The notes beneath the pieces are model-generated. The model ran no database searches and was not told the origin of the DNA. It saw only the letters and a program-made list of their open reading frames with translations. A program made the translations under genes and the position numbers. Positions 9,148-43,728 of a stretch of DNA of 64,000 nucleotides are shown here, piece after piece (within the stretch, counting starts at the first letter, position 1; every line of letters begins with the position of its first letter). Source of the stretch: Symbiodinium sp. CCMP2592 (taxonomy: Eukaryota; Sar; Dinophyceae; Suessiales; Symbiodiniaceae). The stretch is taken from NCBI GenBank assembly GCA_905221615.1, contig CAJNDT010001225.1:806001-870000 (forward strand), written 5' to 3'.

Positions 9148-9327
9148 TGTTCGTTTGTAACCTAGTGCACGTAGTCCCAAGTAGAGTGTGTAGAGTAATC
9201 ACGAGAACACATGAAACATGTGTGTGAACCGCGACACGAAGGCTTAAGCAAGTCAGCCCGCGAAGTGAGAAAAGTGTGTTAGAGAGTAGAGTGGGAAGGA
9301 AGGCTTGAGAAGCCTTTAGTTTCAACA
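9148..9327 (+). repeat. 5' LTR of the copia element
   Basis: 180 bp, TGTT...AACA, identical by eye to 27944-28123. Very short for an LTR. It should contain the promoter and R region, but I recognise no TATA-like box. Confidence 0.92.
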
Positions 9328-10778
9328 TGGTAGCGGAGCTCCCTGATTCAGACCTCTTGGGAGCGATGAAGCTATCACAGGAACAACAGGTAGCTGTCGC
9401 CATGGTTTCCTTGGCATTGGCTTTTTCGCTGATGTGTCTGGCGAGAAGCTTTGTGAAAGAACTTGTGAGAAAGGAGACAGTGGAGCGCGTTGCTCCGGCT
9501 GAGGAAGAGCTACCAGAACTCTGGTACTCGCCTTACGGAGAGAAGACCCACACTTCAGGAAGATGTCATGGCCTCAGGAACGCAACCAGTGTACACCGAG
9601 TACTACCATGCAAGTACTGTTGCCCCGGTGGACTTCGATCCCGGGAACAACGCACCTTCGAGTACAAGAGAACCTTTTTGGAAGCAGCAGGAAAGTACCT
9701 TTGGCTAAAAGTCTTCATGGTTGTGGTTCTCATGGGCATGTCATGGTTCATGGTGTTTGAAGTGAACGAGACCTACGGCTACCCGTTGGCCACGAACCGC
9801 ATGCTGAACTACAGGAACAAGGTCCTCAGCCTCGATAACAAGAACCCCAAGAAGAAGCATGTGATAAAGGAGATTACCCCAGCGGATGTTGTACCTGCCG
9901 GGAAGAGCCAAGAAGGTGATCACACAGAACTTTTCACGTTGTGGTCGCATCTACATGAGCCCAATACCGAACCGAGAACGAGAACGAGATCAACGTCACG
10001 AGCTACCTCAAGAAGACGAACGTGTACTCCGAGTTCTACAAGAACAAAAGAAAAGGAACAAAGTTGCAACTACAGTTTTTATGAAGGTGATGTCGCGGAG
10101 TATAACGAGAACCTAAAGAACGAAGAAGTGCCCCACGTGAACTACTACAAGAACCTTGTGTTTGAGTTGGTCTTGGAGTTTCAAGAGTACCTTGCGAAAG
10201 CAGGAAGAAGCCTTGAGCCCGTCGTGAGCTACGTCGTGCGCACGTGTCACCCAGTACTACTTCTACTTGGGACCCCGCTTGGTATGGTCACTTGGATCTA
10301 CCTCTATTTTTGGGTCAGAGTTAAGCAAACAAAAAGAGAACAGTTGAAGAAGAAAGTTTCGAGAAGGAAGTTGCACAGGTCAGTTTGCAGCGTTCTTTTC
10401 AAGAAGCGAGTCTGGTTGCATGTTGTGTTGCTTTACAGTCACATGCAGAGTGCAGTTGCGATGGAGGAAGCCTTGCAAAGGCTCACGGACCTTACTGCCC
10501 AAAACACACAGCAGATACAAGCACTTGCCCAAGCAATGAACAGTCAGCAAGCACAGGCAGGTACCGCTTCACAACAATTACAGGAACTCGCGCAGTCAGT
10601 TTCACAACAGCAAAGAGCAATTACGGAAGCAACCCAAGCAACCAACACAGCATTGTCACAACAAGCAGAGCTTACTGCAAACGCGGTTGCAGCAACAGGA
10701 AAGCTTACAGCAGACGCAGTTACAGCACTGTCGCAGCACGCAGAGTCAAGAAGGCCAGGAGAGATCGACCTCCACAAG
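9327..10778 (+). CDS. Copia polyprotein, N-terminal membrane region (exon-like part before element 2)
   Basis: ATG at 9327 shares its A with the last base of the LTR. The 484 codons to AAG at 10776-10778 join in frame to ATG at 19497 if element 2 is removed. Hydrophobic segments about 20 residues long occur near residues 15-40, 125-150 and 310-330, so the N-terminus is probably membrane-inserted. Between them lies a small His/Cys motif (SGRCHGLRNATSV and PCKYCCPGG). The last part is Gln/Ala-rich helical sequence (EALQRLTDLTAQNTQQIQAL), likely coiled coil. The region is unusual for copia gag, which is normally soluble. The function of this extension is unknown; anchoring particles to a membrane is a guess. 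The frame now runs 5 codons into element 2 before a stop. Confidence 0.75.
9328..9342 (+). promoter_or_regulatory. Putative primer-binding site
   Basis: TGGTAGCGGAGCTCC directly follows the 5' LTR. It resembles the initiator tRNA-Met type site TGGTAKCAGAGC used by many copia elements, with one difference in the first twelve bases. It overlaps codons 1-5 of the polyprotein. Confidence 0.6.
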
Positions 10779-10955
10779 AGTTTACTCCTTTAAACTTCCC
10801 GAAGCAGAAAGGATGAACTCCTTATTCAGTTTTGCACAAATTTCATGTTTGTTTTAAACTGAAATTAGGAATCACGTTTGCAAGTTTTCCGGGCAGTGAG
10901 ATGAAGTGTGGCTCCGGCGACTTTCCTCTCAAGTGTGGGCACGGGGAAAACTTGT
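10779..10955 (+). repeat. Split direct repeat arm A1
   Basis: Begins AGTTTACTCC and ends ACTTGT. Matches 19139-19315 with one T/C difference in the ATGTTYGTTTT stretch. Confidence 0.9.
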
Positions 10956-10965
10956 AGGGCTAGGG

Positions 10966-11259
10966 ATGGCCGCGCGCCGTCGCGAGCTGCCTCCGGTGCC
11001 ACATCGGCGCCTTCTTCTCTTGTTTCTCGAGGAGGAAGAGGAGGTCCGGGGCTGGCGCAGTGAGATTCGTGCGTTGGACCTTGTCAATTTTCTGGGCGCT
11101 TCGCGTACGAATAGCTTGCTGCTGCGTTTTCTGGGCCTAGACTTTTCTTACGAGCTTTTCTGCGTCAACAGAGCTGTCCGAGTCATTTTGCTGGCTACTT
11201 CCGATTTTGCGGCTGCCGACGCGCGTCGCCTTCGGCTTCGCTACTTCGGTCTCCGCTGA
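10966..11259 (+). CDS. Small Arg/Leu-rich ORF at the 5' end of element 2
   Basis: ATG at 10966 just inside arm A1, TGA at 11257-11259, 97 residues with strongly basic and Leu-rich composition and one run of five Glu. No domain recognised. Its stop overlaps the next ATG in the pentamer TGATG (11257-11261), an arrangement that can allow termination-reinitiation; that use here is inference. It could instead be leader sequence without a protein product. Confidence 0.35.
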   Translation: MAARRRELPPVPHRRLLLLFLEEEEEVRGWRSEIRALDLVNFLGASRTNSLLLRFLGLDFSYELFCVNRAVRVILLATSDFAAADARRLRLRYFGLR

Positions 11260-11887
11260 TGCAGTCGGAAGCCGAGCCTTCCGATGCCGAAGATGGTCTG
11301 CCCTTGACATTCTTTTGGAAAGGGGTGGATGGAAGGTCTTCGGGGCAGCTTGGTGAAAATGCTGTGCCTTGCGATCTCCTTGAGGATGCCTCTCAGGCCG
11401 CAGGTGTGGCACACGGGGAGCATCTGGAGATAAACTCAGTTGATGGGGCTTTTTCTGCGAACTTAGATGTTTTCGAGGAAGATGTTTGGTCCTGTGGGAA
11501 TTCCGCTGCGGAACGAGACTGGTATAAAGTTGATTTGTCGGAAGATGGTGCTGCTCTGCCTTCAGAGGATTCAGTGGGCCTTCCGGCTGAAGCTCATGGT
11601 TTGGGCTTGTCATCTGCGGCGGCAGGTTCTTCTGCTGCTTCTGCTAGAAATCTGGACAGGTCGATGGCGGCAGCTTTCCAAACTTTGGATGTTCCTCAAG
11701 TAAAGCAAGTCTGGGAGAATGATTTCTGGGGAAGTATTTTTACTCCTCAGTCAGAGGATTCCTTCCGTGGGTTTTATGGAACTGGCTTCAAGAGGCCTCT
11801 GCAGCCTGGCGTCCCAGAAGGCGTCTTGGAGCAACCTTCCAAAAAAACCCGCAGAGGGCGGGAAGGGTCGTCACTAGAATTTTCGAG
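11259..11887 (+). CDS. Acidic N-terminal extension upstream of the element 2 recombinase
   Basis: ATG at 11259; the frame stays open to 12053, but sequence after about 11850 is better explained by the recombinase frame. About 200 residues rich in Ser, Glu, Asp and Gly, then a basic SKKTRRGRE. A run of seven A at about 11840-11847 (codons TCC AAA AAA ACC) lies at the switch: one extra base there would fuse this ORF to the recombinase frame without a stop. So it is probably the N-terminal part of the recombinase protein, reached by a ribosomal slip, or split by a 1-base deletion. Confidence 0.45.
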
Positions 11888-13447
11888 ATGGCCGTTGTCA
11901 ACAGAGTGGTTGCATCATGGAAGCAGCAGCGCGAGGAACAGCTTTTGGAAGCGGTCTGTGCTTGGGCTGTTTTCATTGGCAGATGGTCTGAAGGTGTGCA
12001 GGTGCGGGATCAGCTTTGTGAACTTCCCACTGACGATGAAAGGAAGGCCATGACTTACGATGTGCTGGGTGCAAAGGCCCCGGGAACACTTCGCAAGAGG
12101 TTAAGGAGTCTCTTGAAGTATGAAGCTTTCCTTCGTCAGAAGAAGCTGGTTTTCCCTGCAAACGAGATTTTACTTTACATGTTCCTCTGTCTTGAAAGGG
12201 ATGGGGGTGCCAGCTTATCTTCGCGAAAGGCTACGTATGAAGCAGTGGTTTTCTGCAGATACGTCCTGGGGGTAGAGGAGCTGGACCTATGTGTCAAGAG
12301 CAGGCGTTGCCTTGGCAATGCGTGCCGTGGCGAGGTGAGGCCGAGGAACAGGGCTTCGCCGCTAACGGTAGATGAGCTCTCCCTTCTGCGCGACCGGCTG
12401 GAGAACGCACAGGACCCGTGGGACCGCGTTTTCGCTGGAGCAGTTTTGCTGTGTGTATATTCGCGGTCAAGATGGTCAGACCTGATGCATGCAGAGGGAA
12501 TTATCTATGATTATGACAACCAGAAGAATCTTGCCTATGTGGAGTGCCCCGTGGCATACCATAAGAATATGAGGAGCCGAGTTATGCGGCATGATCTGCT
12601 TCCTATGGTGGCTCCTGGCCTGGGAGTTGCGGGTTCCAACTGGGCGAGGCTGTGGAAACTTGCTAGAGAGGAACTCAACATTCCAGATCCTCCGGAATTT
12701 CCTGTCATGCCGGCGCCGGACAAGTCTGGTGCTGCTAGTGTCAGGCCGCTGGACACTGAGGAGATGGGCAGGTGGCTGAGACATCTGCTAACGGGTTCGG
12801 GATCGAAGCAAGCTGACAGAAAGCTATCATCGCACAGCTGCAAGTGTACCATGTTGAGCTATGCGGCAAAGAGGGGAATCAGTATAGTCGACAGGCAGCT
12901 GTTGGGATATCACACGACGCCGCACCGCATGGCCCTGACATACTCCCGTGATTCTGCAGCTCATCCTTTGATGATCTTGGAGCGGATGATCAAGGAGATA
13001 AGGGATCGAGTTTTTCTTCCAGATGAGACTCGTAGCGGGCGCTTGGTGGGCAAAGCCGCTGACTCGCAGCAGCGGACAGAGGTAGTTGTGATAAAGGAGG
13101 AACATGACCCGCCCTCTCCTAGCGAAGGGGCTGATGCTGCTCATAACCTTGCAGGCGATGAAGAAGCCCTCGACGCTGAGGCCACCGGGCATATCACTAC
13201 GGACTCTTCCTCCAGCGACTCTTGCCCGGAGGAGGCCGAGGGACCGTTCTCGAAGCTGGTAGTGAATGTTCCCGAGGGTCATGATGTGTGGAGGCACGAG
13301 AAGTCGAGAGTGGTGCATTTTGCCCCTACCGGCTACACTAAGGTTTTTGCCTGCGGAAGGGCCATAGGATCTCTGCATGTCAAGATACGGGCAGAGGACC
13401 TCCGGTGGGACTTCAGCAAGTGTAGGATCTGCAACAAGAACGTTTGA
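11888..13447 (+). CDS. Tyrosine recombinase of element 2
   Basis: 519 residues from ATG 11888. Core-binding region about 60-150, catalytic domain about 155-365. The full catalytic set is visible: R195 (SRSRWSD), a candidate K226 (AYHKNM), H316 and K319 (SSHSCKCT), H346 (TTPHRMAL) and the nucleophile Y352 (TYSRD). After residue 370 comes an acidic Ser-rich linker and a C-terminal module with VHFAPTG...FACGRAI...CRICN, of unknown role. Such enzymes insert DIRS-order retroelement circles into DNA. It lies before gag, 231 bp upstream of its ATG, unlike the usual DIRS order with the recombinase last. The real start may be further upstream (see the ORF at 11259). Confidence 0.85.
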   Translation: MAVVNRVVASWKQQREEQLLEAVCAWAVFIGRWSEGVQVRDQLCELPTDDERKAMTYDVLGAKAPGTLRKRLRSLLKYEAFLRQKKLVFPANEILLYMFLCLERDGGASLSSRKATYEAVVFCRYVLGVEELDLCVKSRRCLGNACRGEVRPRNRASPLTVDELSLLRDRLENAQDPWDRVFAGAVLLCVYSRSRWSDLMHAEGIIYDYDNQKNLAYVECPVAYHKNMRSRVMRHDLLPMVAPGLGVAGSNWARLWKLAREELNIPDPPEFPVMPAPDKSGAASVRPLDTEEMGRWLRHLLTGSGSKQADRKLSSHSCKCTMLSYAAKRGISIVDRQLLGYHTTPHRMALTYSRDSAAHPLMILERMIKEIRDRVFLPDETRSGRLVGKAADSQQRTEVVVIKEEHDPPSPSEGADAAHNLAGDEEALDAEATGHITTDSSSSDSCPEEAEGPFSKLVVNVPEGHDVWRHEKSRVVHFAPTGYTKVFACGRAIGSLHVKIRAEDLRWDFSKCRICNKNV

Positions 13448-13678
13448 GCGAGGCGGCTAATAACCGAGTGTGAGCCTTGTTTGCGAGTCTTCAGTTGCAT
13501 GTTTTCTGCTCGCATGTGCGCACTCCGTGGAGTAGGCTTTGATTTGTTCGCTCGCGGAGGCCCGAGATGTGATCCATGGCAGATTGTTACATGTAAACAT
13601 GTTGAGAGATTTACATGGAGTTTGAGTGCGTTTTCTCACGTTGTAGGTTGGTGCTGCTAGGGTGCGTAGGTTCCGAAC

Positions 13679-14913
13679 ATGTCGACCGTGATCGAAAGCG
13701 AGGCTGCCTTTAAGCAGAGATGTGCTGAAGCTTCGAAGGATGCGACTCTGCATACCAAGTTGGAGGCACAAGGCATCAGGTGCTTCAAGACATTGGCTTT
13801 CGCGATAGGGTCGCCTCAGCAGCCGCCTACGGAGGCTCAGTTTGACGAATTCAGTGTGAAGGTGTACGGAGTTGCTCCTATACCATGGGGCAAACCGCAA
13901 TCTTGCGGCATCTGCACTTCGAGGCCACGACTCTAGTGGTTCAGACTTACAGGGACATGGTCACCAACGACCCGTCTGATCCATCGCACACCAGGAAGGT
14001 TCCGGTTCCTGAAAAACGGGCCAGGCTGGAATTCCAGAGGCGGCGACTTTCAGGAATGGAAATTTCTGGAGAGCTTGAGCCTTCGCATCAGCTTCTTGAC
14101 ATAGCAAATCAGCAATACGAGTCCGGAGTTCTTACTTGGATCCCTGCGTCGAAATGTGCCAAGAGGGAAGCTGAGGTCCTTGCATTGGGCAAGGATAGGA
14201 GCTCTTTGTTGCAGGTGGAACAAAACGTCATAAAGGTGGGGCCTGGTGACCAGGCTATCGCTTGTGATGTTTCGGATCCTCTGCGTTTTCAGTGGGCCAT
14301 GATGCGAAGAGGCATAGCTTTTGACAACTGTCACCTGCTGTCCTGGGATGTGCATCAGAGGTGGGTTCAGAAGATGCTGGATTGCCTTTCAGCAACCCCG
14401 CCACCGAGTTATAGCCCAGTCAGTTTGAATCAATGCATGCGTGCGGATAAGGAGCTTTTTCTGCTATTGGCCAGGGAGGCTGTGCCTCCTTTCAAGGTGG
14501 ACTCGCTCGGGGTTTCGCCGCTTGATGCAAAATTTTCAGCAATGATGTATGATGTCCGTCTTCAGCAGTTCCTGTTGCCGCTTCCGAAGCAGACAGCTCC
14601 TGTCTTGGCAGTGCCTGTGGATGATGGGGCGGGGAGTTCCTCCCAGCCCGTCCCGAAGGGGAAGGCCAAGGCAAAAGCAAAGGCGAAGGTGAAGGCGCGC
14701 ATCCGTAGGACTGTGCCAGAAGAGTTGAAGCAGTACTCTTGCAGGACAGAAGATGGAAATGTTTGTTGGGATTTCAATCTTGCCTCAGGCTGCTCTCTTA
14801 AGACTGAGAAGTGCAAGGGAGGGCTTAAGTGTGTCCGCGGCCTTCACATCTGTGCGAAGTGTCATAGGCCGGGGCATTCAGCAGTGTCGTGCAAAGCCAA
14901 GGCGCAAGAGTGA
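13679..14913 (+). CDS. Gag of element 2 with zinc knuckle, one frameshift
   Basis: Starts at ATG 13679. That frame ends at 13936, while the rest of the protein reads in another frame open from 13885 to 14913, so one frame change falls in the 13885-13936 overlap. Together about 400 residues: N-terminal helical domain, a middle part with WDVHQRWVQKML, a Lys/Ala-rich linker (KGKAKAKAKAKVKARIRR), then two Cys motifs, CWDFNLASGC...C and a CCHC knuckle CAKCHRPGHSAVSC. Role: RNA-binding capsid protein. The frame change may be a mutation or a recoding site; I see no classical slippery heptamer. Confidence 0.65.
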
Positions 14914-15122
14914 CTATCTGAGTCATTGTCGCCCGTTGTGTTGCATGATTCTTCTCACAGTGAGGACTGCACTTTTGGTGCAGCAGCCGCTGGAGAGCAG
15001 ACTCGGCCGTTGGTGTACCGTGCTCTCGAGCAGGTGCGGGGACCGGCGGAAGGGTCAATCTTGAATGATAAGACACTTCTTCAAGAGAAGTTGCAAGCGT
15101 TGAAGGCGAGGGCTCTTACTCG

Positions 15123-18100
15123 ATGAAGTCGCAGGTCGAGCCGAGGAAATCTCCTTGTGAAGGCCAGGCGCAAATTTCACCCAAGCCCAGCGGTCAGCTG
15201 GAAGTGCCAATGGCAGTGTCACCTGATACCCCTAAATTTGGTTCTAGTCCTCGCCCAAATAGGCCGCAGTTCACTGATCCTGAAGCTCTTGCGAAGTTTC
15301 TCTTGCGGCAGCCGTCGTGCTTGACAGCCAGTGCAGCTCTGGATCTTTTGGAGCTTTTGCCTCAGGAGGCGCAAAATCCTCCTAGGGCATTTCAGGGATC
15401 GGGTGGAGCTCGATTCAGCATGGGCGTCTACCGGCGTGGCGGTATTTTGGGTTTGCATAGGACTATGGACATGTTCCCGTTTTCTATCAAGGTTTTCAAC
15501 CTGCTTGTGAGTCGGGTGTGCCCTGCATTCAGTTACTCTTCACTTGCAATCCATGAAAATCTTGCCTCAGGATTGCACCGCGACGAGAACAATCGTGATG
15601 GCCCTACATTGTTGGTGCCTTTGACGGACTTTGAGAACGGTGAACTTTGGTTTCAGAAGGTTGGAGGTGATGTCGCTTCGTTGAATGACCCTTCTTTGGA
15701 GGGATGCCTGCTTGATGTGGCCGCCGGCCCCACCTTTTTCTCGAAGCCTAAAGATTTTCATGAGACTAGGCCGTGGGAAGGTCGCAGAGTTGTCATGCTT
15801 GCTTATTCGGTGCGTCAGTGCGAGGAGCTCCGGCCTGAATTACGAGCTGTCGCTGAGCGGCTCGGGTTTTCTGTGTCTCCTTTGGGTTTAGGCCCTTTTG
15901 TGGTTTCCTGGGACCCTAGGTGCCTCTCCCCTGTTAGGCCGTCGCAGCGTGATGCCAGCAGTGTCCAGCAGTCGGCGGCGGGAATGTACTTCGTTGAGTT
16001 GTGCGCTGGGACAGCTGTTCTTAGTAAGGCAGCTGCTAAGTTAGGCTTCCGGCCTTTTGCAGTTGATTCCTCTAGAAGGCGGGCTGGTGAACAAGTTGTC
16101 ATCATGGATTTGAGTGATCCAGCCCAGGCTGAAGCAGTTGTCGATTTCTTGCGAGTTGAGTATCATCACGTCATCTGTGTTTTCATCTCACCTCCGGTGG
16201 GCACCGCATCTTTCATGCGTGAACGGCATAAGCCTGGTTCTGCTGAACTTGATTTGAAGATGCCAAATGCTTTGAGGTCGGCGTTGCATCCGGATGGCTT
16301 GCCGACTTTGCGTGGTCGTGATAAACTCCAGGTTGAGCGTGCAAATCAACTGTTTGATCAGCTTGCAAACATTGCATGTGAGGCTTGTGATCTTGGAATC
16401 CTGACAGTCCTGGAGAGTCCTTCTAACAGCCGTTATTGGGACACCTCCTTCTGTGCTAAGGTGACAAATCATGTGCAGGGTCACTTTGTAAAATTCCATG
16501 CCTGTGTGCATGGAGGTCACAGACCCAAGTTGATGCAGCTTTGGTCGTCACAGGACGTTTTTGGCATGCTTGCGGGTCGCTGTGACGGGTCGCACGAGCA
16601 CAAACCGTGGCGACCTTTCATTTCGAAAAGGAAGCGGGTGAGCTTCATCACAGCAGATGAACCCGAATTTCCGCCGCTCCTCGTCGATCGTATCATTGGT
16701 TGCATCGTCCATGCGCATCCCAGCTTGTCCTTCGGGCCACGTGTGCTTGCACAGGCAATACAGGATCCTTCTGCGAATGTCGCCAGGATAAATCTGGGCA
16801 CTCAACCCAGGGGAAACTCCTTGCCTTCGCTTGTGTGGGAGTTTGACACTACGTTGGATTTTGTTGTGCCAGTGCAAAATGACAAGCCGTTGGAAGCTGT
16901 GCTTTCTTCCCTTCCAAAGGGCTCCAGAATCTTCTCGAGACGCGTGTGTGAGTGGGGTTCGCTGAAGAGTCTCCTCGAAGGAGTTGGCAAGCTAAAAACA
17001 AACATCGTGGGCTTGGACCCTTTGCATCCGCCTGCTTGTGCAGAGCTTGTGCAAGTCGGTGTACCGTGCTCTGAAGATGTCTTTGTTGAGAGAGCTATTG
17101 CGGCAGGACACCCACGGTCCTTGGCAGTCCATGTTGAGCCTTTCGTCACAGTTAGTGCACGTGCTAACTTTGAGGCTCCCCCGGCAGAACTTGCGGCCTT
17201 CAGGATTGATGCAATGAAGTTTTGGATTGGTCGTGCAGGTGCCCTCAGGGAAAAGGAGCAGGAACTTCACCGAAATCTCCCTGATCACCTGCGGCCCATA
17301 CTTAAAGGAAAGAAGCTCTTGCTTCTCCAAGAGATGATGAGGGCCGCAGGGTGTGAGGATGTTGACCTTGTTTCTGATATATGCAAAGGTTTCAAGTTGT
17401 CGGGCTGGCTTCCTGCGTCGGGTGAGTTTGTGCCGAGGTCCAGAAGGCCCAAATTCAGTGTCGAGACGTTGGGAGTTTTGTCGAAGGGCTTGAACAAAGC
17501 AACCTTGCAAAAGCTGTCCAGGAGGCAGAATTCCGAAATTGAAGAATCCACCTGGGTTGAAACCCAAAAGGAGATTGACGCAGGTTGGGTGTGGCTTGAG
17601 GAAGGGCCGGTTCCTGAGATGGTCTCGATTGCTATGCGCTTCGGAATCATGCAGAACAAATTGAGGGTCATCGATGACCTTTCTTGTTGCGGCCTAAACG
17701 CGACAGTGGGCTTGCTGGAAAAGTTTTGCTTGCATACGATAGATAAGCTTGCGGCCATGATGGCTCATGCTTTTGATGTCGTGTCCGGTGTTATGCCTGA
17801 GTGCTGCGGCCGAACTTTCGACCTTACGGCAGCGTACAAGCAATTTGGTGTGTGTGCTGCTGACCGTGAAAGGCTACGCATTGCTGTCAACAGGCCAGGC
17901 CACCACAAGCCGAGCTTCCTGGGCGTAAACGCCCTCCCCTTCGGAGGGGTGGGGTCAGTCGCTGCTTTCCTAAGGATAAGTGTCGCCTTGTGGAAGATCG
18001 GAATAGTCCTTTTCAGGCTATTCTGGTCTGCCTTTTTCGATGACTACAGCATAGTTTCTGCGAAGAGCCTGGAATCGAACGCCCAGTGGACTGTGGAAAC

Positions 18101-18992
18101 TTTGTTTGACCTGCTTGGTTTCCGCTTCGCCAAGGACGGGTCCAAAGCCGAACCCTTCGGAGTTACCTTCAACATGCTCGGCCTCTCTGTTGATCTGTCT
18201 TGTGTGAAGCAGCGGATCCTTCGTGTGGGTCATACTCAGAAGCGAAAGGAAGAGCTCACCGAGTACATCCAAACCATCCTTCAGGAAGGAAAGATCGACT
18301 CGAAGGCTGCCGAACGCCTTAGGGGTCGTATGGTTTTCTTCGAGGGTTTCACCTTTGGAAGGGTTTCTAATCGGGCTCAGCGAGTTGTTGCAAAGTGCGT
18401 GGAAAAGTCTGCCCCTCAGAATCTTACTGAAGATTTGATGTGGGCGTTGACGTGGCTGCGTGAAAGAATAGCCATGAGCCAGCCTTTAGTTGTCGAGCGA
18501 AACCTCATCACAACGCTGATCGTTTTCACTGACGGGGCTTGCAATCCAGAGGAAGGCACGGGAGGTGTCGGAGGCGTCCTTGTGAATGCCTCTGGTACTC
18601 CGTGCGAGTTCTTCGGTGAGGCAGTTCCAAGCGATTTGATGCAGCAGCTTTTGAGCATCAGTGCGAATCCCATTTTCGAGCTTGAGTTGATTCCAGCACT
18701 GATCAGCCTTATCATTTGGGCCGATCGCTTGAAAGGAGCTCAAGTAGTGTTCTATCTTGACAATGATGGTGCTCGCCATTCTCTGATCCGAACCTTTGGC
18801 GGTAGCGCACTCGCCAACTCTGTGATTGAATCTTTCCTTCAGCTTGAAACCACGTTGCAGCTGAAGACGTGGTTCGCTCGCGTACCGACTGCTTGCAACA
18901 TAGCAGACAATCCCTCACGGCTGGAATTTGAGCCTCTTTTAAAAAGAGGTGCTGCAAGGCGTGCTATTCCGTGGGACCAGGTCATGCCGTAG
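15123..18992 (+). CDS. Fused dioxygenase-like, methyltransferase-like, reverse transcriptase and RNase H polyprotein of element 2
   Basis: One uninterrupted ORF of 1289 residues from ATG 15123. Residues about 100-235: Fe(II)/2-oxoglutarate dioxygenase-like fold with HxD (H152, D154), distal H213 and R221/R222 in WEGRRVVMLAY. Residues about 285-500: methyltransferase-like, motif I YFVELCAGTAVL, a motif IV position reading SPPVG (Val where the element 1 homologue has the catalytic Cys) and VLESP. Residues about 840-1080: DIRS-type RT with RTFDLTAAYKQF and the catalytic AFFDDYS. Residues about 1125-1270: RNase H with FTDGACNP, FELELIPAL, FYLDNDGA and NIADNPSR. RT and RNase H look catalytically intact. 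No protease is visible, so how the domains are separated is unknown. What the first two domains modify is unknown. Confidence 0.8.
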   Translation: MKSQVEPRKSPCEGQAQISPKPSGQLEVPMAVSPDTPKFGSSPRPNRPQFTDPEALAKFLLRQPSCLTASAALDLLELLPQEAQNPPRAFQGSGGARFSMGVYRRGGILGLHRTMDMFPFSIKVFNLLVSRVCPAFSYSSLAIHENLASGLHRDENNRDGPTLLVPLTDFENGELWFQKVGGDVASLNDPSLEGCLLDVAAGPTFFSKPKDFHETRPWEGRRVVMLAYSVRQCEELRPELRAVAERLGFSVSPLGLGPFVVSWDPRCLSPVRPSQRDASSVQQSAAGMYFVELCAGTAVLSKAAAKLGFRPFAVDSSRRRAGEQVVIMDLSDPAQAEAVVDFLRVEYHHVICVFISPPVGTASFMRERHKPGSAELDLKMPNALRSALHPDGLPTLRGRDKLQVERANQLFDQLANIACEACDLGILTVLESPSNSRYWDTSFCAKVTNHVQGHFVKFHACVHGGHRPKLMQLWSSQDVFGMLAGRCDGSHEHKPWRPFISKRKRVSFITADEPEFPPLLVDRIIGCIVHAHPSLSFGPRVLAQAIQDPSANVARINLGTQPRGNSLPSLVWEFDTTLDFVVPVQNDKPLEAVLSSLPKGSRIFSRRVCEWGSLKSLLEGVGKLKTNIVGLDPLHPPACAELVQVGVPCSEDVFVERAIAAGHPRSLAVHVEPFVTVSARANFEAPPAELAAFRIDAMKFWIGRAGALREKEQELHRNLPDHLRPILKGKKLLLLQEMMRAAGCEDVDLVSDICKGFKLSGWLPASGEFVPRSRRPKFSVETLGVLSKGLNKATLQKLSRRQNSEIEESTWVETQKEIDAGWVWLEEGPVPEMVSIAMRFGIMQNKLRVIDDLSCCGLNATVGLLEKFCLHTIDKLAAMMAHAFDVVSGVMPECCGRTFDLTAAYKQFGVCAADRERLRIAVNRPGHHKPSFLGVNALPFGGVGSVAAFLRISVALWKIGIVLFRLFWSAFFDDYSIVSAKSLESNAQWTVETLFDLLGFRFAKDGSKAEPFGVTFNMLGLSVDLSCVKQRILRVGHTQKRKEELTEYIQTILQEGKIDSKAAERLRGRMVFFEGFTFGRVSNRAQRVVAKCVEKSAPQNLTEDLMWALTWLRERIAMSQPLVVERNLITTLIVFTDGACNPEEGTGGVGGVLVNASGTPCEFFGEAVPSDLMQQLLSISANPIFELELIPALISLIIWADRLKGAQVVFYLDNDGARHSLIRTFGGSALANSVIESFLQLETTLQLKTWFARVPTACNIADNPSRLEFEPLLKRGAARRAIPWDQVMP

Positions 18993-19002
18993 ATGATCGG
19001 GG

Positions 19003-19138
19003 TGAAGGAAGACGGCACGGAGTGTAGCATCCCACGTGGAAAAATAGAGTTGCGCGAGCAAGGGACCTTCGCACATTTATATGGATATATTATTCCATAG
19101 AAAACATATTGGATTCCGGTGTGCAAATAAGGAATAAG
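19003..19138 (+). repeat. Split direct repeat arm B1
   Basis: 136 bp from TGAAGGAAGACGG to GGAATAAG, 11 bp after the stop of the long ORF. Identical by eye to 19361-19496. Confidence 0.9.
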
Positions 19139-19315
19139 AGTTTACTCCTTTAAACTTCCCGAAGCAGAAAGGATGAACTCCTTATTCAGTTTTGCACAAA
19201 TTTCATGTTCGTTTTAAACTGAAATTAGGAATCACGTTTGCAAGTTTTCCGGGCAGTGAGATGAAGTGTGGCTCCGGCGACTTTCCTCTCAAGTGTGGGC
19301 ACGGGGAAAACTTGT
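19139..19315 (+). repeat. Split direct repeat arm A2
   Basis: 177 bp, pairs with A1 at 10779-10955. It abuts B1 directly and is followed by a 45-bp spacer (19316-19360). Confidence 0.9.
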
Positions 19316-19360
19316 CCCGCCCTCCCGACCCAGATTGTTTGAGCCTACCCCTTAGCCGTC

Positions 19361-19496
19361 TGAAGGAAGACGGCACGGAGTGTAGCATCCCACGTGGAAA
19401 AATAGAGTTGCGCGAGCAAGGGACCTTCGCACATTTATATGGATATATTATTCCATAGAAAACATATTGGATTCCGGTGTGCAAATAAGGAATAAG
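19361..19496 (+). repeat. Split direct repeat arm B2, right end of element 2
   Basis: 136 bp, pairs with B1. The copia reading frame resumes at the next base with ATGATC. Confidence 0.9.
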
Positions 19497-22400
19497 ATGA
19501 TCAAATCTCCAGAAGTCTTTGGCCCTACTACATACAAGGAAGAGCGTGATGGTTTTCTAGAGTTTCGGTTGAAGCTGAGAAGTTGGATAGGCGCTCTCAA
19601 CAACGACATCCTTGAGAAGATCAACGCAGTCGAGATGGATAGAAGAGAAGCATCATGGGAATGGAGCAAACTTAACCCAGGTGAACAAGCACTCTCAAGA
19701 AAGCTACATTCCATTCTCACCAGCTATACACGTGGTCGTCCTCTACGAACTCTAAAACAAGTGCCCAACGAGAACGGTTTCGAAGCATGGAGGTTGTTGG
19801 TGGAGGAACATCAGCCTCACAACCGTGCACGTTCTCTACAACTACTTAACGGAGTTCTTCACTACAGGTTCGACAAGCAAAGGTCAACACAAGAAAATAT
19901 TTTGAAGTTCGAGGAGTTGATTGAAGAGTACGAGAGAGCGAGTGGAGACCTTGTTGCGGACGACATGAAGATTTCCATCATCCTTGGAGGAACTGAAGGG
20001 AACATGAGACAACATCTTCTACTCAACCAGAAAGAGACCACAAACTACGGTACACTACGACAGTACCTCCTCTCCTACGAGCAAGCAGCAAGGTGGACTA
20101 CCACAGACCTTATCAACTCAGGAAAGGACCACCAAGGACAAGCAGACATGGATGTTTCACGAGTGGAATGGTGGAATAAAGGCAAAGGAAAAGATAAAGG
20201 GAAAGGAAAGAAAGGAAAAGGATTTGGCAAGTACAGCAAAGGCAAAGGCTTCGGCAAAGGAAAAGGAAAAGGAGAAAGCCAGTACTACTACAAAGGCCGA
20301 GGAAAAGGAAAAGGACGAGGAAAAGGAAAAGGCAGAGGCCGAGGATATGGCAAAGGCGGGGGAAAAGGCTACAGCAGCAAAGGAAAAGGTAAAGGCTACA
20401 ACAACCCAGGAATTGGTGTTTGTCATTACTGCCAAAAGCCTGGACACTATGAAGCCAATTGCAGACTCAAGCAGAGAGACATGCAGCAGAACGTCAGGAA
20501 CGCACAGGAGGAAGACGAGCAAAGCGTCAGGACGCAGCCTACTACAGTTCCAAGCAGTAGCGCTTCGGCAGCCACAACAACAAGAACTACAAGCGCGAAG
20601 TCTACAGCTAAGCCAACAGTTCGGCAAATCGCGATGTACCACATGGACAACGATCCCGTCACGTACCCTGAAGTTTTTGAACTTGACGAAGACGAAGAAG
20701 AGCTCGAGATCGAGTACTTTGGAAGAGTCTTGAGAGTGACGGAAGCTGAAGAGTTTGTTTTGTCAGAAGGAGAAGAGAGCGAAGAAGAACAAGAAGATCC
20801 TCTACTAAACTGGTACCTTGGACGTGAAGCACTACCACCACAAGAAGTTCTCTCAGTACGCGTTGTAGAGGAAGAGTTTTTCCAGGAAAGTGATCTTCAC
20901 CAAAGAATCGAAGTTATCCTGGATTCTGGCGCAGACGTTTCTCTTGTGCCCTCTTGGCTAGGAAAAGAAGGAACCCCTTTGAAGGTTCGCCCTTCGTCCA
21001 TTCAGGACGCACAAGGAAAGGCAATAAAGACGGAAGGCAGAAGGATGCTGAACTTAACGTTCTTTGATGACGACGGAAGCTTTTGTCGCATCCAGGAAGC
21101 CTTCACCGTTGCCTCGGTGATCAACCCGCTGATGGCCATAGGCAAGCTGTTTCGAGAAGGTTGGGAGTTGCGAGTGAACGAAGAAGAAGGTATGTGTCTT
21201 ACAGATGGAAGCTCAAGAATACCAGTGCATCTCCACAAGAACAGCTTGGCAGCCTATGCCTACGTACAAACTCCTTCAAGAAGCAGAAGTTACAGCAGCA
21301 ACAACTACAAGATGGTTCGCACAGTTGTTCAGCTCAACAAGCACGTTCAGGAAGCAGTGAACAGAGAAGAACCTGGTTGGCACAACACAGACAGCATGGT
21401 GATCGTGAAGTACGCCACTCAATGCAGCTATGAGAACCCATCTCTCATGTACAGCCCTACGCACTTTCCGTACAGAAGCACTTTGGTGAAAGAAGAGAGA
21501 GGATGGAGAGCAGTTGAAGTTTCAAGAAAGTACTCCGAGAAGGCAGACCCTTTTGAAGAGTTTGCAGAAGGAGAAAAGGAAGTGGTTACAGCCATTTCAG
21601 CAAAGCCAATTCCACTTTGGATCCTTGGCACCCCCTACGCTGCTGGAGACCGAGCAGACCAAGAAAGTCATGGTCGTGACTACTGGAGAATGGACCTCGA
21701 GAAGGGAGAAGTTGTTCGTCACCACGTAGTACCAAGAACTGTACTGTTTGACCCGACAGGAGTTGCCAACTGCCCTGTCCTCCTTGGAGATCTCGAGAAC
21801 AGCAGGTATACCCAAGGAGACTGCATTTACAGTACAGAGATCTACGAACACAGCGACGACTGGAGAGCAGACCGCCTACCTCTACGTGAACACTTCCGTT
21901 TACCGTGGTTTGGTCAAACAAGGTTTCGTGTGAAGCCAGGAGTTGTTGAAGACCTAAAAGCAGAAGCTGCAGCAGAGGAGCTAAAGAAGAAGAAGGAAGA
22001 GCACTACAAAGAGAAGGAAGATTCAGCAGCACCACCAGAAGCAGAGGAGAATAAAGACGAAGAGATGAGAGAAGCACCAGCAGACCAAGAAGCACCACAA
22101 GAAGTTGTTGAAGTTTTGGAGGAAAGCTTCTACCACGAAGGCGTCGAGTACACAGCGCAGAAAAGCAGTCTTAAGGAACTACAAGCACTTTGCAGAGAGT
22201 ACAGAGTGAAGACAACAGGAAGCAAGAAGCAGCTCTTGAAGAGACTCGCCACAGCAGTCAGAGAAGAAAGGCTCAGCACGCAGCACAAGGAACAACGGGA
22301 ACACCACCAAGCATACCACCTAGCACCACCACAGGAACCAACGGAAGAGGAGAGAGCGTACCACAACTTGACGCACCTTCCGTATCAGCCTTGGTGTCCC

Positions 22401-23042
22401 CATTGCGTTGCTATGAAAGCACGAGAAGACAACCACAAGAAAGGATTGAGCAAGCCAAGCAGCTCTACGGATTCCGCGAAGCCCGTCATCAGTTTTGACT
22501 TTTGCTATACAAGCACCACAGGAAGTGAAGAGCCACCAGCAGTGACTCTTGTCGCTGTGGACAGCTGGAGCAAGGCAGTTCTTTCGGTGCCCTGCAAGAG
22601 GAAAGGAGGTGCAGGAAGCACGACGCATCTCGCGGAAGCACTCGTGCAGTTCACCACGCAGCTCGGGTACAACACCCTCGTTCTCAAAGCAGACAACGAG
22701 AACGCAGCCAAAGCACTCAAGGACAAAGTACAGAAAGTACGCAGCAGCCTTGGACTTTCTACAACACTACAGGAAAGCATTCCTTACGACCACGAAAGCA
22801 ATGGAGCCGCAGAAAGAGCAATACAAACAGTACGGAGGCAAGCGAACACCATTCTCGATGAACTCAGAGAAAGAACACAGCTGGGAATACCACACGAGCA
22901 CGCAGTAGTAAGCTGGGCGTTTAGACACGCCTGCTGGCTACTCAACAGGTTCGCAGTGAGCAGCTCCACAGGAAGAACGCACAGGAAGTTATCCACGGAT
23001 ACCCCTACTCAGGGAAGCTTGTACCCTTTGGTACTGTTGTGA
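19497..23042 (+). CDS. Copia polyprotein: gag, zinc knuckle, protease, integrase
   Basis: Continues the frame left at 10778. In order: gag helical domain (about 19500-20110); a Lys/Gly-rich GKGKGKG basic region; CCHC knuckle CHYCQKPGHYEANC (about 20420-20462); acidic linker; aspartic protease with ILDSGADVSLVP (DSGAD codons near 20922-20936); integrase with an HHCC zinc site (YHNLTH and WCPHC, about 22350-22405) and catalytic D, D and E in ISFDFCY, LKADNENA and NGAAERAIQ (about 22490, 22690, 22805). Near 22979 one base appears to be missing: the following codons make sense only in the next frame, which carries on through VPFGTVVMAK, while this frame hits TGA at 23040-23042. Codon use is compact and Lys/Glu-rich as in the rest of the element. 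Confidence 0.85.
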   Translation: MIKSPEVFGPTTYKEERDGFLEFRLKLRSWIGALNNDILEKINAVEMDRREASWEWSKLNPGEQALSRKLHSILTSYTRGRPLRTLKQVPNENGFEAWRLLVEEHQPHNRARSLQLLNGVLHYRFDKQRSTQENILKFEELIEEYERASGDLVADDMKISIILGGTEGNMRQHLLLNQKETTNYGTLRQYLLSYEQAARWTTTDLINSGKDHQGQADMDVSRVEWWNKGKGKDKGKGKKGKGFGKYSKGKGFGKGKGKGESQYYYKGRGKGKGRGKGKGRGRGYGKGGGKGYSSKGKGKGYNNPGIGVCHYCQKPGHYEANCRLKQRDMQQNVRNAQEEDEQSVRTQPTTVPSSSASAATTTRTTSAKSTAKPTVRQIAMYHMDNDPVTYPEVFELDEDEEELEIEYFGRVLRVTEAEEFVLSEGEESEEEQEDPLLNWYLGREALPPQEVLSVRVVEEEFFQESDLHQRIEVILDSGADVSLVPSWLGKEGTPLKVRPSSIQDAQGKAIKTEGRRMLNLTFFDDDGSFCRIQEAFTVASVINPLMAIGKLFREGWELRVNEEEGMCLTDGSSRIPVHLHKNSLAAYAYVQTPSRSRSYSSNNYKMVRTVVQLNKHVQEAVNREEPGWHNTDSMVIVKYATQCSYENPSLMYSPTHFPYRSTLVKEERGWRAVEVSRKYSEKADPFEEFAEGEKEVVTAISAKPIPLWILGTPYAAGDRADQESHGRDYWRMDLEKGEVVRHHVVPRTVLFDPTGVANCPVLLGDLENSRYTQGDCIYSTEIYEHSDDWRADRLPLREHFRLPWFGQTRFRVKPGVVEDLKAEAAAEELKKKKEEHYKEKEDSAAPPEAEENKDEEMREAPADQEAPQEVVEVLEESFYHEGVEYTAQKSSLKELQALCREYRVKTTGSKKQLLKRLATAVREERLSTQHKEQREHHQAYHLAPPQEPTEEERAYHNLTHLPYQPWCPHCVAMKAREDNHKKGLSKPSSSTDSAKPVISFDFCYTSTTGSEEPPAVTLVAVDSWSKAVLSVPCKRKGGAGSTTHLAEALVQFTTQLGYNTLVLKADNENAAKALKDKVQKVRSSLGLSTTLQESIPYDHESNGAAERAIQTVRRQANTILDELRERTQLGIPHEHAVVSWAFRHACWLLNRFAVSSSTGRTHRKLSTDTPTQGSLYPLVLL

Positions 23043-26000
23043 TGGCGAAGAGGTTGAAGATTAAGAAGAAAGGTGACAGGATATGGAACGCAGGAATATT
23101 TTTAGGCAAGACAGAGCAAGACACATGGATCGTTGCACAGCCTGATGGCATACATATCACACGCAGCGTGAGACCACTACCAGAACAGTACGACTCCAAA
23201 AGAACAAGCAGCATTGAGGTCCATACCTGGAACCTCAACACACCACTCCTTTGAGCAAGAGTACTTCCAGAGAAGAAGCAAAGACAACGACCACAGCTAA
23301 GCATCCTGCCCCCTGTTGCCGAGGAAGAACGCGAACAGCTCGAGAACGACGAGGCCGCTAGCGACCCTCCGAGTTCGGAGGACAGCAGTGAAGAGCAGCA
23401 GCGAGCACTTGAAGACAGAGAGGAACAAAGCGAAGGCAGCAGCATGAGTGTGACGAGAGATAGAAAAAGAAGAGCTGAAGTTGATGACGATACCCTTTTG
23501 GAGGAACTCAGAGCAGTTGAACCACTTACAGCCTCAGCAGAAGCACTTTCAGCACCAGCTGAACCAAGAGCAGAAGCAAGCAAGCACAGTCTTGAGCCTG
23601 AGGAACCAAGCTCACCCAGCAAGCTACGAAAGCAGGTCAACAGAGCAGAGGAAACAGACGGTTACCTCAACATGCCTCATGATGATGAAGTCTACGAAGC
23701 AGATGATGAGTTTGTGTACGAGTCGGAAGAAGAAGAAGAGGATACAGAGAGTGAACCAACAGAAGTTTCTACCAAGGTCCCTGTCGAGTTCTTCGACGAG
23801 GAGAAAGGACCACCGAACGTGGATCCAGCTTTTCTTCAGAAGTTGGATGATGAAGCTACAGTCAAGGAAATCAAGAGGTTAACAAAGATGGGAGTTATTT
23901 CGTTGGTTTCTACGGACCCTCAGGAAGCAACTGAGAACGTACCTCTGGTAGACTCAGAGCAAGAACTTCACAAGTGGTTGACAACGAAGTTGGTGAAAGA
24001 TTGGAGGTTCAGAGAAGCTACAGGTTTTGAAGTTGAAGAAGCCAAAGAAGGAACAACAAAGCCCAAGCAGATTCAAAGATGCTGGCAACGACGTGCCAGA
24101 CTAGTAGCCAGAGAATACAAGACAGAAGGAAAAAGGGAAGATATATTTTCCCCTGCGACAAGCCCAGGAATTACAAAACTGGTGCCCATGCTGGCTCTCG
24201 CCAATCACTGGGCGATCTACAGTGTCGACGTGAAGGACGCGTTTTTACAAGTCCCTCAAAGAACACCTTGTTTGTGTCGAGTACCTGAAGAAGCAGCTCA
24301 CGTCGTACAAGCAATGCAGGAACAACAAGAACGCAGCCCTGGAACTTGGTGTTGGAAGTTAGGAAGAGTTTTGCCAGGTCAACGCGACGCATCCAGTCTT
24401 TGGTCAGACTTTTGTGATGGACTTTTGGTGGAAGAGAAGTTTGAGCGTTGTACAGCAGTTCCAGCACTTTACCGTCTTCTACGACAAGGAAAAGTGGTTG
24501 CAGTTTGCATTGTGCATGTAGATGACTTGCAGTTTGCAGGAAAGAAGGAAGTCATCGAACCAATCCTCAAGAACCTCAAGAAGAAAGTGAACCTACAAGT
24601 TGAAGGACCTCTTCTGAACGAGGAAGACTACGAGAAAGGATTTTCTGAAGAGACCGTGAAGTTTCTCAAAAGGAAGTACACGTACGAACATCATGAACTA
24701 CGAGTACATAGCGATAGCAAGTACGTGAAGAAACTCGTGGAGATCCTCAAGCTGGAGAAGAAGAAGGCCAAGAACTCACCTTGCACACCGGCTAGTCAGG
24801 AACCTGACGTATCCCAAGAACTGGACGAGGAACACTCGAGAACGTACAGAAGTTGTGTCGGCATTTTGTTGTACGTGGCGCACGACCGTCCGGACATTCA
24901 GTTCGCAGTACGTAGCCTAAGTGCTGCCATGACGAAGCCAACGGAACGCAAAAGAAAGGAGTTGGAGCACTTGGCGCTCTACCTCAAAGGAACGTCAGAC
25001 TACGCCGTTACGTACCACAGGAACAGCCCAGGAACGTCAGCTCTACGTCACCGCGCCGAAGAACCACAAGAACTACAAGAACCTCGAGAACAACCACGCG
25101 AACGTTTGCTCGAAGTTTTCAGTGACTCCGACTGGGCCGGAGACAAGCAGACTAGGAAGTCAGTGAGTTGCGCCATGTTCTACCTGGACGGTGCATATTT
25201 CTACAGCTACAGCAGGACACAAAAGTCAATAGCATTAAGCTCAGCAGAAGCAGAATACATGGCACTTACAGGAGCAGCAAGTGAAGGAATAGGTTTACAC
25301 GCAGCAGTTCGTTTCCTTACAGGAGAACGAGTACTACTCAAAGCATACACAGACAGTTCCGCGTGCCGCGGAATCACAAACCGCCAAGGAACAGGAAGAG
25401 TCAAGCACTTGCAGATTCGGTTACTTTGGCTACAAGCAGCAATACGCGAAGGCAAGCTTACTGTACACGCAGTCGGTACAAAGGAAAACACAGCAGACCT
25501 AGGAACAAAGCCTCTCAGCACGAAAAGAGTGAAGTTTCTCCTGAACATGATCGGCATGTGCAACAGCGAAGGAAGAGTTGGAGAGCAACAGCGAGAGGAA
25601 GAAGAAAAGGCACAAGTGGTGAGAAGACTCGAGAAGATCATGAAGAACAAAAGCAGCATGTTGTTTGCACTTTCGAGTTTGTTTGGAAAGACTGAGGCAG
25701 CCTACGTACCTTTCGCCGCAGCTCAAGAAGTAGCAAGCCCACAAGAAGTCCCAAGCAGTCCTGGAAGCATGTCGCTTCTGGAAGTCCTGGTGACGCTCGC
25801 CATGGTGTGCATGGCGGCATGGTTTGTCGTGAACGAGATGAGAAAGCCACAGCAGCACAAGAAGCCGAAGAGAGAAGAGAGGAGCAGCGGTGAAGAAGAG
25901 GAAAGCAGCTCAGGAAGCAGAAGTGGAGAGAAGAAGAAGAAGAACCGAAGGAGGAAGAAAGCAGAGAAAGACGAAGCGAAGACTGAAGCTCCTGCCGCTC

Positions 26001-27442
26001 AGGTGAACTACGACGTGGACTCCTTCGACGAGGCAAAGAAAGAAGTGACAGAGAGAGCAGAGAAGTTGAAGAAGGTTGAGGAAAGCCTGGAGAAGGAAAA
26101 GGAGGAGTTCGGAAACCAAAAGACAGAGTTTGAGGAGACAGTGAAAAGGTTTTTGAAGAAGCAGAAGGAGGTGAAGGAAAAGGAAGACAAAGTTACAGAA
26201 AGAGAAGAGAAGTTAGAGAAAGACCAAGAGACCCTCCAAGAGCAAGCCAAGGTCTTAAGCGAGAAGGAGACAGCCCTTGAAGAAGCTGAGGAGAACGTCA
26301 AAGCAAAGGAAGCAGAGGTTGAAAAGAAGAAGAAAGAGGCAGAGAAGAGAGAGAGAAAAGCCCAGGAAAGAACCGCCGGCTACGACCAGGAGAGAGAAGA
26401 GTACGCCAAGAAATACGTGGGCGACGCAAAGAAGGACCTGGAGAGAGAGCTTAAAGTACTAAAGCAAGAAGAGAAAGTAAGGAACCAGAAGCTCGACGAC
26501 CTCCAGTACGACTACAAGAGCCTCAAGGACGACTACCAGTACTTCAAAGGTTACTCACAGGAAGTGGACGCACTTCTACTTGCAGCTAAGGACAAGATCG
26601 TGAAGTACAAGAAGAAGGTCAAAAGCCTCAAGGAAACCATAGGTGCAGCCCTGTCTGGAAGCGAAGGTGAAGAAGAGACAGAAGAAGCGTACAAGAGCAA
26701 AGCAGAAGAAGAGAAAGAGAGGAAAGAAGCGCAAGCAAAAGAGGAAGAGAAGAAGAAAGGAAAAAGGCCAAAGCAGGTAGAGACAGAAGACCAAGAAGAG
26801 AAGCCGTCAAGCAACCAAGGAGACGAAGCTACCGTCGACCCCAACGACATAGCTGAGTTCACGCAGCTTGGCTACGTGTGGGAGTTCAACAAGAAGACGC
26901 AAGAGTACCGCGCGAAGTGCGAGGACAAGAAAGGAAGCACGAGAATCAAGAACGCTCCGGTGAAAGGCCGCCTCCTTTGGAACAAGGTGACGGAGTGCTA
27001 CAGAAGACACAACATGTGGTTTACAGACGGAAAGGAATTGGATAAATTTCTCGAGACCAAGGAGAACGAGAAGATCGAGGAAGAGGTGCAGCGACGCATC
27101 GGCATGAAGGGCAAGAGCGACAACACAGGAACCAAGGGAAAAGGCCCTTCCTGGGACGACGGACACAACGACGGTTGGTGGTACAACGACCAGTGGAACA
27201 ACGAGAACTGGAACACCAACGACGACGGCAGCAACTGGTACGAGAACGCGAACCCGAACAACAAAGGCTACTGGCAATCGCCAGAAGAGTGGGCGCAGCA
27301 GAACCACTGGGACCAGTGGACACCCAAAGGAAAGGGTAAAGGCAAGAAGTCCAAGAACTGGGTCAGACCCAGTGAAAGAATCCCGAGAAGGAATGATCGA
27401 GCAGGTCAAGCAGTGAACGCCTGTACATATGTACATAGCTAA
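23039..27442 (+). pseudogene. Copia polyprotein: integrase tail, RT, RNase H and C-terminal membrane/coiled-coil extension
   Basis: Same frame throughout, broken only by TGA at 23252-23254. RVT_2-type reverse transcriptase (about 23850-25000) has SVDVKDAFLQVP and catalytic VHVDDLQF (24512-24535). RNase H (about 25120-25560) has FSDSDWAGD, SSAEAEYMAL, YTDSSACRG and TKENTADLGTK. After RNase H come about 600 extra residues: a hydrophobic segment LLEVLVTLAMVCMAAWFVV (near 25780-25835), a long Glu/Lys coiled coil (about 26040-26640), a module with YVWEFNKKTQEYRAK, and a Trp/Asn-rich tail with GKGKGKK. A typical copia pol ends at RNase H, so the extension is unusual. With the missing base near 22979 restored and the TGA read through, the codon count from 19497 to 27442 is exact, supporting one original polyprotein of about 3130 residues. 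Confidence 0.85.
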
Positions 27443-27943: not shown

Positions 27944-28123
27944 TGTTCGTTTGTAACCTAGTGCACGTAGTCCCAAGTAGAGTGTGTAGAGTAATCACGA
28001 GAACACATGAAACATGTGTGTGAACCGCGACACGAAGGCTTAAGCAAGTCAGCCCGCGAAGTGAGAAAAGTGTGTTAGAGAGTAGAGTGGGAAGGAAGGC
28101 TTGAGAAGCCTTTAGTTTCAACA
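27944..28123 (+). repeat. 3' LTR of the copia element
   Basis: 180 bp, identical by eye to the 5' LTR. Followed by the AGAAA target duplication at 28124-28128. Confidence 0.92.
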
Positions 28124-43683: not shown

Positions 43684-43685
43684 AC

Positions 43686-43728
<43 letters not shown>

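Follow-up and report, generated by a model that had tools for sequence, protein, structure and literature searches.

A 64,000-nucleotide window of the genome of the dinoflagellate Symbiodinium sp. CCMP2592 (assembly GCA_905221615.1, contig CAJNDT010001225.1, positions 806,001 to 870,000, forward strand) carries a retrotransposon that is, by its anatomy, a tyrosine-recombinase (YR, DIRS-order) element, and whose intact Pol open reading frame (ORF) joins a 2-oxoglutarate/Fe(II) (2OG-Fe(II)) dioxygenase domain and a C5-methyltransferase fold to reverse transcriptase (RT) and RNase H. The oxygenase is probably, although not provenly, a member of the TET/JBP family, and the methyltransferase (MTase) fold of the window copy is, judging from its residues, not a functional C5-MTase. 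Somewhat better than even chances are given here to a TET-like eraser or recoder of base marks carried by Gag-Pol together with a pseudo-methyltransferase.

The Pol frame and its oxygenase domain

The Pol frame is organized as follows:

15123..18992, + strand: Pol ORF P0001 (1289 aa, intact), with oxygenase, MTase-like domain, connector, RT and RNase H
15393..15872, + strand: TET/JBP-like 2OG-Fe(II) dioxygenase domain, residues 91-250 (predicted fold, family alignment)
15576-15578, + strand: putative Fe ligand H152 (family alignment)
15582-15584, + strand: putative Fe ligand D154 (family alignment)
15591-15593, + strand: N157 (family alignment)
15759-15761, + strand: putative Fe ligand H213 (family alignment)
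15786-15788, + strand: putative 2OG-binding Arg, R222 (family alignment)
15963..16742, + strand: C5-methyltransferase-fold domain, residues 281-540 (AlphaFold2, family alignment)
16197-16199, + strand: V359, at the place of the catalytic Cys (family alignment)
17493..18302, + strand: reverse transcriptase, residues ~791-1060, FFDD box (limits approximate, hand-set)
18303..18989, + strand: RNase H, residues ~1061-1289, TDGAC (limits approximate, hand-set)

The initial annotation, made from the letters of the window, proposed a single intact ORF encoding a retroelement Pol with oxygenase and methyltransferase folds, and the frame is confirmed and this general view supported. The ORF is not a product of chance, since at least five full-length copies (residues 1-1289, 98-100% identical, stop-free), the window copy included, occur in the 1.1-Gb genome of the same strain, further subfamilies remain open and nearly full length at 39-43% identity, and a protein search yields at least 76 relatives at an expectation value (E) of 0.001 or less, down to 25% identity (7989 candidates scored). 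The genome holds at least 44 matches to Pol (36 of 6711 first-look candidates scored), copies with stops and truncations among them. For P0001, PHROGs offered no more than a weak RNase H match, NCBIfam gave nothing useful for six proteins, and no viral-contig relative was confirmed among the 22 pattern matches of one scan.

The order of RT and RNase H is as first annotated, and the window copy is too divergent for the Pfam cut-offs (RVT_1, E 0.23; RNase_H, E 0.098). Six of 37 family members match RVT_1 at E<=0.01, the family profile weakly reaches RT/RNase H structures (E 0.047), and the FDD and TDGA columns are nearly invariant in the family alignment. The RT tree leaves out 7 of 86 proteins with no or a short RT match. 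Two relatives, P0031 and P0079, have the reverse order of the two domains (MTase - oxygenase - RT). The RT of P0079 has no match to the family RT at E 1e-5, and the oxygenase-MTase pair may thus have been shuffled between elements.

The oxygenase proposed around residues 100-235 is predicted by AlphaFold2 as a double-stranded beta-helix at about 89-250; modeled alone from 22 sequences, the domain reaches a predicted local distance difference test score (pLDDT) of 93.9 and a predicted template modeling score (pTM) of 0.90. From the list of putative active-site residues given in the initial annotation, H152, D154, H213 and R222 are invariant in a 12-domain alignment and R221 varies, while N157, missing from that list, is invariant as well. 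H152, D154, N157, H213, G220 and R222 are all kept in 35 of the 36 domains readable at the six columns, the exception being P0027, which has lost the distal His; N157 is conserved in 42/42 readable rows (of 44, many of them close relatives). Within the genome, the H, D, N, H and R are retained by all 23 copies that have a frame of more than 1000 codons and cover the region (about five distinct subfamilies).

The initial annotation had left the choice between TET/JBP and AlkB types of base modification, and here TET/JBP-type ancestry is favoured by sequence and not by structure. A profile of 11 family domains (A4), run against 177635 PDB sequences, gives three matches at E<=10; every one is TET2, at a whole-sequence E of 0.015-0.016, and HRDxxN and HATxP are collinear in the alignment. 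Tet_JBP is the sole 2OG Pfam family matched (P0084, E 1.5e-6; P0064, 2e-5; P0086, 0.0028; P0080, 0.12), being reached at E<=10 by 3/11 and 2/12 domains of two overlapping sets, and the protein database assigns PF12851 to P0084. At least four matches to PF12851, none reaching the cut-off (E 2.2e-4 to 3.0e-4), were found in the genome by a search that scored 150 of 155 candidates and could miss intron-split host genes; all four fall within a sister family, in frames that are open over 1231-1283 codons, on contig C485 and three other contigs. Among predicted viral proteins, Foldseek places JBP1/TET of a giant virus at rank 2 and of a phage at rank 9, in the company of many other 2OG enzymes.

Several observations weigh against the TET/JBP assignment. 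Structure does not choose between TET and AlkB, because the VIA-align Z scores are tied within 1 (ALKBH5 11.0, Naegleria Tet 10.8, TET2 10.7, FTO 10.5) and Foldseek is mixed, listing ALKBH2, AlkB, CcTet and TET2 with ALKBH2/AlkB at the top. Taken independently, the best single A4-TET2 stretch reaches no better than E 0.42, and for a second profile of 12 domains (A2) TET2 (E 1.5) ranks below a chance match to a sensor kinase (E 0.0011), a result counted as weak. The window oxygenase domain itself has no Pfam match, and no member passes the Tet_JBP (PF12851) cut-off of 34.9 bits in hmmscan, the highest scores being 28.0 for a protein (P0084) and 29.6 for a genomic locus (L043), with P0064 at 24.4. 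The Cys-rich part found in animal TETs is also missing from the domain, and therefore DNA binding must come from elsewhere.

An AlkB-type demethylase stripping N-methyl groups such as N6-methyladenosine (m6A) from the RNA of the element, or acting on DNA, would agree with the leading Foldseek matches and with the tied first place of ALKBH5, and a retroelement-borne m6A demethylase of the AlkB family is experimentally known from an orchid Gypsy element (PMC9289625). It is nevertheless considered unlikely: none of the domains tested matches an AlkB-family Pfam profile, whereas Tet_JBP is matched, and the PDB profile search returns no AlkB at E<=10 and instead TET2, with which HxDxxN and HATxP align. 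A protein hydroxylase or another 2OG enzyme not acting on nucleic acids would be in line with the P4H, AspH and PHD2 structures found among the matches; this reading is highly improbable, as AlkB, FTO or TET proteins make up 48 of the 50 VIA-align matches listed and no tested domain matches a P4H Pfam profile.

With regard to the substrate, in conventional TETs an Asn three residues past the Asp ligand contacts 5-methylcytosine (5mC). The fungal CcTET carries Gly331 three residues after Asp328 and is described as having lost the hydrogen bond that holds 5mC in conventional TETs (PMC12730594). The retained N157 thus favours 5mC, since the enzyme with Gly at that place has lost this contact. We take the lost bond to be the one from TET2 Asn1387. 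A JBP-like thymine hydroxylase making 5-hydroxymethyluracil (5-hmU) is unlikely, although this base is known in dinoflagellate DNA, the TET_JBP family is described as containing thymine hydroxylases, and 5-hmU is enriched over most repeats of Breviolum minutum in a study whose main text names no JBP or dioxygenase (PMC11071213): cytosine agrees better with N157 and with the C5-cytosine MTase fold to which the domain is fused, and no specific similarity to JBP was seen.

The methyltransferase fold and selection on the fusion

The methyltransferase-like stretch annotated at residues 285-500 is predicted by AlphaFold2 as a C5-MTase fold at about 281-540. Neither of the two structural outcomes named in advance as contradicting the initial annotation was thus obtained. 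E292 and G296 of the S-adenosylmethionine (SAM)-binding motif I, the motif VI Glu (E431) and the motif VIII Arg (R467) are kept in the window copy. The DNA_methylase profile does not recognise the domain: PF00145 matches 0/37 family members at E<=0.01. In motif IV the catalytic Cys is replaced by Val359 and ENP reads ESP, and therefore canonical C5 methylation is not expected of the window copy and was rejected as its function. In the 73 readable of 82 relatives the catalytic column holds C in 47, S in 16, V in 7, H in 2 and Y in 1, and the Cys is kept in none of the 24 genomic copies with a frame above 1000 codons (about five distinct subfamilies, a set outside which the C485 family lies).

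Loss of the Cys is seen mostly alongside the oxygenase. Relatives with the oxygenase divide into 16 with and 22 without the Cys, and those lacking the oxygenase into 29 with and 3 without the Cys, a contrast that is phylogenetically non-independent, leaves out rows without data and three partial domains, and may owe some of its oxygenase absences to truncated gene models. Parsimony on the family tree, with L029 and P0072 set by hand to 'not Cys', gives seven changes of the Cys state, one of them a regain; when no regain is allowed, there are about seven losses, five of them in oxygenase-bearing lineages.

The proposal of the initial annotation that the element may both write and oxidise base marks accordingly divides between lineages, its writing half lacking support in the window copy (V359, ESP). 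Methylation there through a residue other than Cys would be consistent with the kept E292, G296, E431 and R467, with strong purifying selection on the domain and with the Cys of sister elements. Val cannot serve as the nucleophile of C5 methylation, and the Cys has disappeared from the several lineages counted above, mostly oxygenase-bearing, so that this variant is very improbable.

The proposal does fit sister elements, in which both catalytic sites occur together. The C485 family of the same genome has an open frame of 1283 codons, whole in one copy, with HRDTHN...HATLPWSGRR, PPCGTAS, ENP, FYDD and TDGS, the first three of these segments being kept at 4/4 loci, and further relatives such as P0012 and the distant P0080-P0083 also carry both sites, with P0080-P0083 sharing the domain order (the records P0080 and P0083 are incomplete toward the C-terminus). 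A tentative hypothesis, itself on the unlikely side, is that C485-type elements use one polyprotein first to methylate cytosines in the complementary DNA (cDNA) that they make of themselves and next to oxidise them, a two-step modification in reverse transcription that would feed 5-hydroxymethylcytosine (5hmC) or, from T, 5-hmU over dinoflagellate repeats; in the window lineage the writer would have decayed to a scaffold, with host methylation as the substrate.

Purifying selection is seen on the oxygenase, the MTase fold and RT. Between the window copy and L008, the ratio of non-synonymous to synonymous substitution rates (dN/dS) is 0.12 for the oxygenase, 0.09 for the MTase fold and 0.06 for RT, compared with 0.33 for the N-terminal tail, and in three pairs from two subfamilies the oxygenase gives 0.10-0.15 at dS 0.34-0.57. 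The fusion is retained in P0069, P0071 and P0072 at 26-27% identity. A captured host sequence drifting without function, to which the copies with stops and truncations might point, is hardly credible beside this retention and was rejected by dN/dS.

Element anatomy, surroundings and proposed working

Beyond the initial annotation, the Pol frame belongs, by anatomy, to a tyrosine-recombinase element with its own ends, a Gag and a UGA-readthrough context. The element measures about 8.7 kb and has the layout A-coding-B-A-B, a YR/DIRS-order feature, being bounded by split direct repeats that are 99-100% identical:

10776..10955, + strand: terminal repeat A1 (180 nt, 99% to A2); element proper from ~10778, GAGTTTACTCC
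11259..12053, + strand: recombinase ORF, 5' piece (97% identical to residues 49-248 of the L032 frame)
11888..13447, + strand: putative tyrosine recombinase ORF P0002, 3' piece (R..HK..HSCK..GYH..TYSRD motif)
13885..14913, + strand: Gag-like ORF P0003 (one CX2CX4HX4C knuckle; ends TGA-CTA)
14911..14917, + strand: putative UGA-CUA readthrough context TGACTAT at the Gag end
19003..19139, + strand: terminal repeat B1 (137 nt, 100% to B2)
19136..19315, + strand: terminal repeat A2 (4-nt overlap with B1)
19361..19497, + strand: terminal repeat B2, the element end (repeat comparison, copy homology limits)

The three copies whose 5' end is readable (L032-L034) show homology from 10778 onward, six copies (L004-L009) show it as far as 19495-19497, and the B1/A2 junction reads GGAATAAGAGTTTACTCC. 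No target-site duplication was seen by eye at the window copy, L003/L032 or L004/L033; L005/L034 lies in TA-rich repeats and is unreadable. In the near-identical pair L002 and L003, homology stops at window 19139-19142, apparently after B1 and with no second A-B, perhaps a recombined form.

P0002 is assigned as a recombinase by its motif alone, with no Pfam or PDB match. The residues R, HK, HSxK, H and Y align in ten copies (the window copy and nine others), with HxxK replacing HxxR and L039 reading KSMK. The ORF is open over 776 codons in L032-L034; the window copy has it in two pieces in different frames, 97% and 99.8% identical to the single open L032 frame.

Upstream of Pol, the Gag stop is followed by CTA, and in human cells UGA CUA is the consensus context associated with high readthrough (PMC4359377). 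TGACTA stands at the Gag stop in 9/10 related copies (loci L032-L034 and L036-L042), and 8/10 have Gag and Pol in the same frame, separated by just one TGA; as the subfamilies are related, these amount to about five cases, four with CTA. The Gag of the C485 family is homologous to that of the window (E 1.5e-39).

Based on this anatomy, the favoured reading of a TET-like eraser or recoder with a pseudo-methyltransferase could work in the following way. Readthrough of the UGA ending Gag would produce Gag-Pol, so that the replication particle would receive the oxygenase and the MTase fold along with RT and RNase H. During or after cDNA synthesis by RT, the oxygenase would oxidise a 5-methylpyrimidine, with 5mC as the first choice, on the DNA of the element, and the Cys-less, still selected MTase fold may act as a DNA/SAM-binding partner presenting the substrate, much like DNMT3L in its partnership with DNMT3A. 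The recombinase would then insert a circle without target duplication. The outcome would be that the near-universal CG methylation of the host, described as the default state in Symbiodinium (PMC5890265), is erased or recoded on the element's own copies, which may thereby evade silencing.

This scheme, too, meets contrary evidence. The Gag stop context is TGAATC in four C485-family loci and TGACAG in L041, and in the closely related pair L017/L022 (dS ~0.05) the oxygenase dN/dS is 0.42, with few changes. In the window copy the recombinase frame is split and the reading frame is also broken on the way from the Gag stop to Pol, so that this copy is probably not autonomous.

The insertion interrupts the gag ORF of a Copia (RVT_2) element at 9148-28123. 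The Copia long terminal repeats (LTRs) are 180 nt long with 0/180 differences, the target duplication is of 5 bp (AGAAA), and an unoccupied copy of the target lies 0.4 kb away at 28502-28819; because of the identical LTRs of the interrupted Copia, its target duplication and the unoccupied copy, both insertions appear to be recent. The first long Copia ORF (19467-23042) carries a SAP domain. Elsewhere, the window holds an ORF with a Na+/Pi-cotransporter domain (33610-34860; PF02690, E 3e-15), a 778-aa ORF with decapeptide/pentapeptide repeats (43562-45898; PF25296, E 3e-157) and a 919-aa ORF with a ubiquitin-like stretch and RCC1-like repeats (57143-59902).

Relation to known systems and biological meaning

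The closest published relative in layout is SymbioDIRS-Dnmt3, likewise from Symbiodinium, with a separate tyrosine recombinase ORF, a methyltransferase in Pol with RT, and the arrangement A-coding-B-A-B (de Mendoza 2018, PMC5890265). DNA methyltransferases were found in that study through PF00145 in DIRS-like and LINE elements, and the Dnmt3 is recognisable with its key residues kept, whereas the MTase fold described here is Cys-less in the window copy, invisible to PF00145 and preceded by a dioxygenase; the main text of PMC5890265 does not contain 'oxygenase', 'TET' or 'AlkB'. Identity with SymbioDIRS-Dnmt3 is rejected, given the 0/37 members matching PF00145. The genome has at least 124 PF00145 places (123 of 1338 candidates scored), none of them, by eye, on the listed loci of the family. 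At three with long frames (C3223, C2879 and C400, the last partly N) the ORFs show no similarity to the family, and no SymbioDIRS-Dnmt3 was identified among these. Among the many PF00145 frames, a large group of about 563 codons may correspond to the published SymbioLINE-Dnmt set, a guess from frame length only.

Other mobile elements share single features. Fungal TET+ elements (Kyakuja, Zisupton and others) likewise carry their own TET/JBP dioxygenase, presumably against methylation, but are DNA transposons and Helitrons, in contrast to the fusion with an MTase fold and RT in one ORF seen here, and the survey describing them states that no retrotransposon was found (PMC12730594). The orchid Gypsy element with an ALKBH5-like m6A demethylase also combines a retrotransposon with a 2OG-Fe(II) nucleic-acid oxygenase, which, however, is of the AlkB family, in a separate ORF and confined to one orchid lineage (PMC9289625). 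DIRS elements with a Dam-like N6-adenine methyltransferase are YR retrotransposons bearing a methyltransferase structurally unrelated to cytosine MTases, and no oxygenase is described in the passages on them (PMC5890265, PMC6338049). DNMT3L, an activity-less C5-MTase relative (PMC11065753), is similarly kept for another role; it is a host protein, likened here by analogy only. Within the open-access literature, searched by titles and abstract beginnings, no TET/JBP-bearing retrotransposon was found, and any claim of novelty is limited to that scope.

If the assignment is right, this is a TET/JBP-bearing mobile element outside fungi, in a genus where CG methylation is the default (PMC5890265), and in the same family as Breviolum, over whose repeats 5-hmU is enriched (PMC11071213). 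This oxygenase would then point to an enzyme class that is a candidate for producing the oxidised bases of dinoflagellate DNA, and the editing of base marks by mobile elements during reverse transcription becomes testable. That the MTase Cys was lost repeatedly, for the most part in lineages with the oxygenase, and with the fold still under selection, offers a natural experiment on pseudo-methyltransferases. If true, elements that are copied through RNA may edit the chemical marks on their own DNA, and may do so in an alga that lives as a symbiont of corals.

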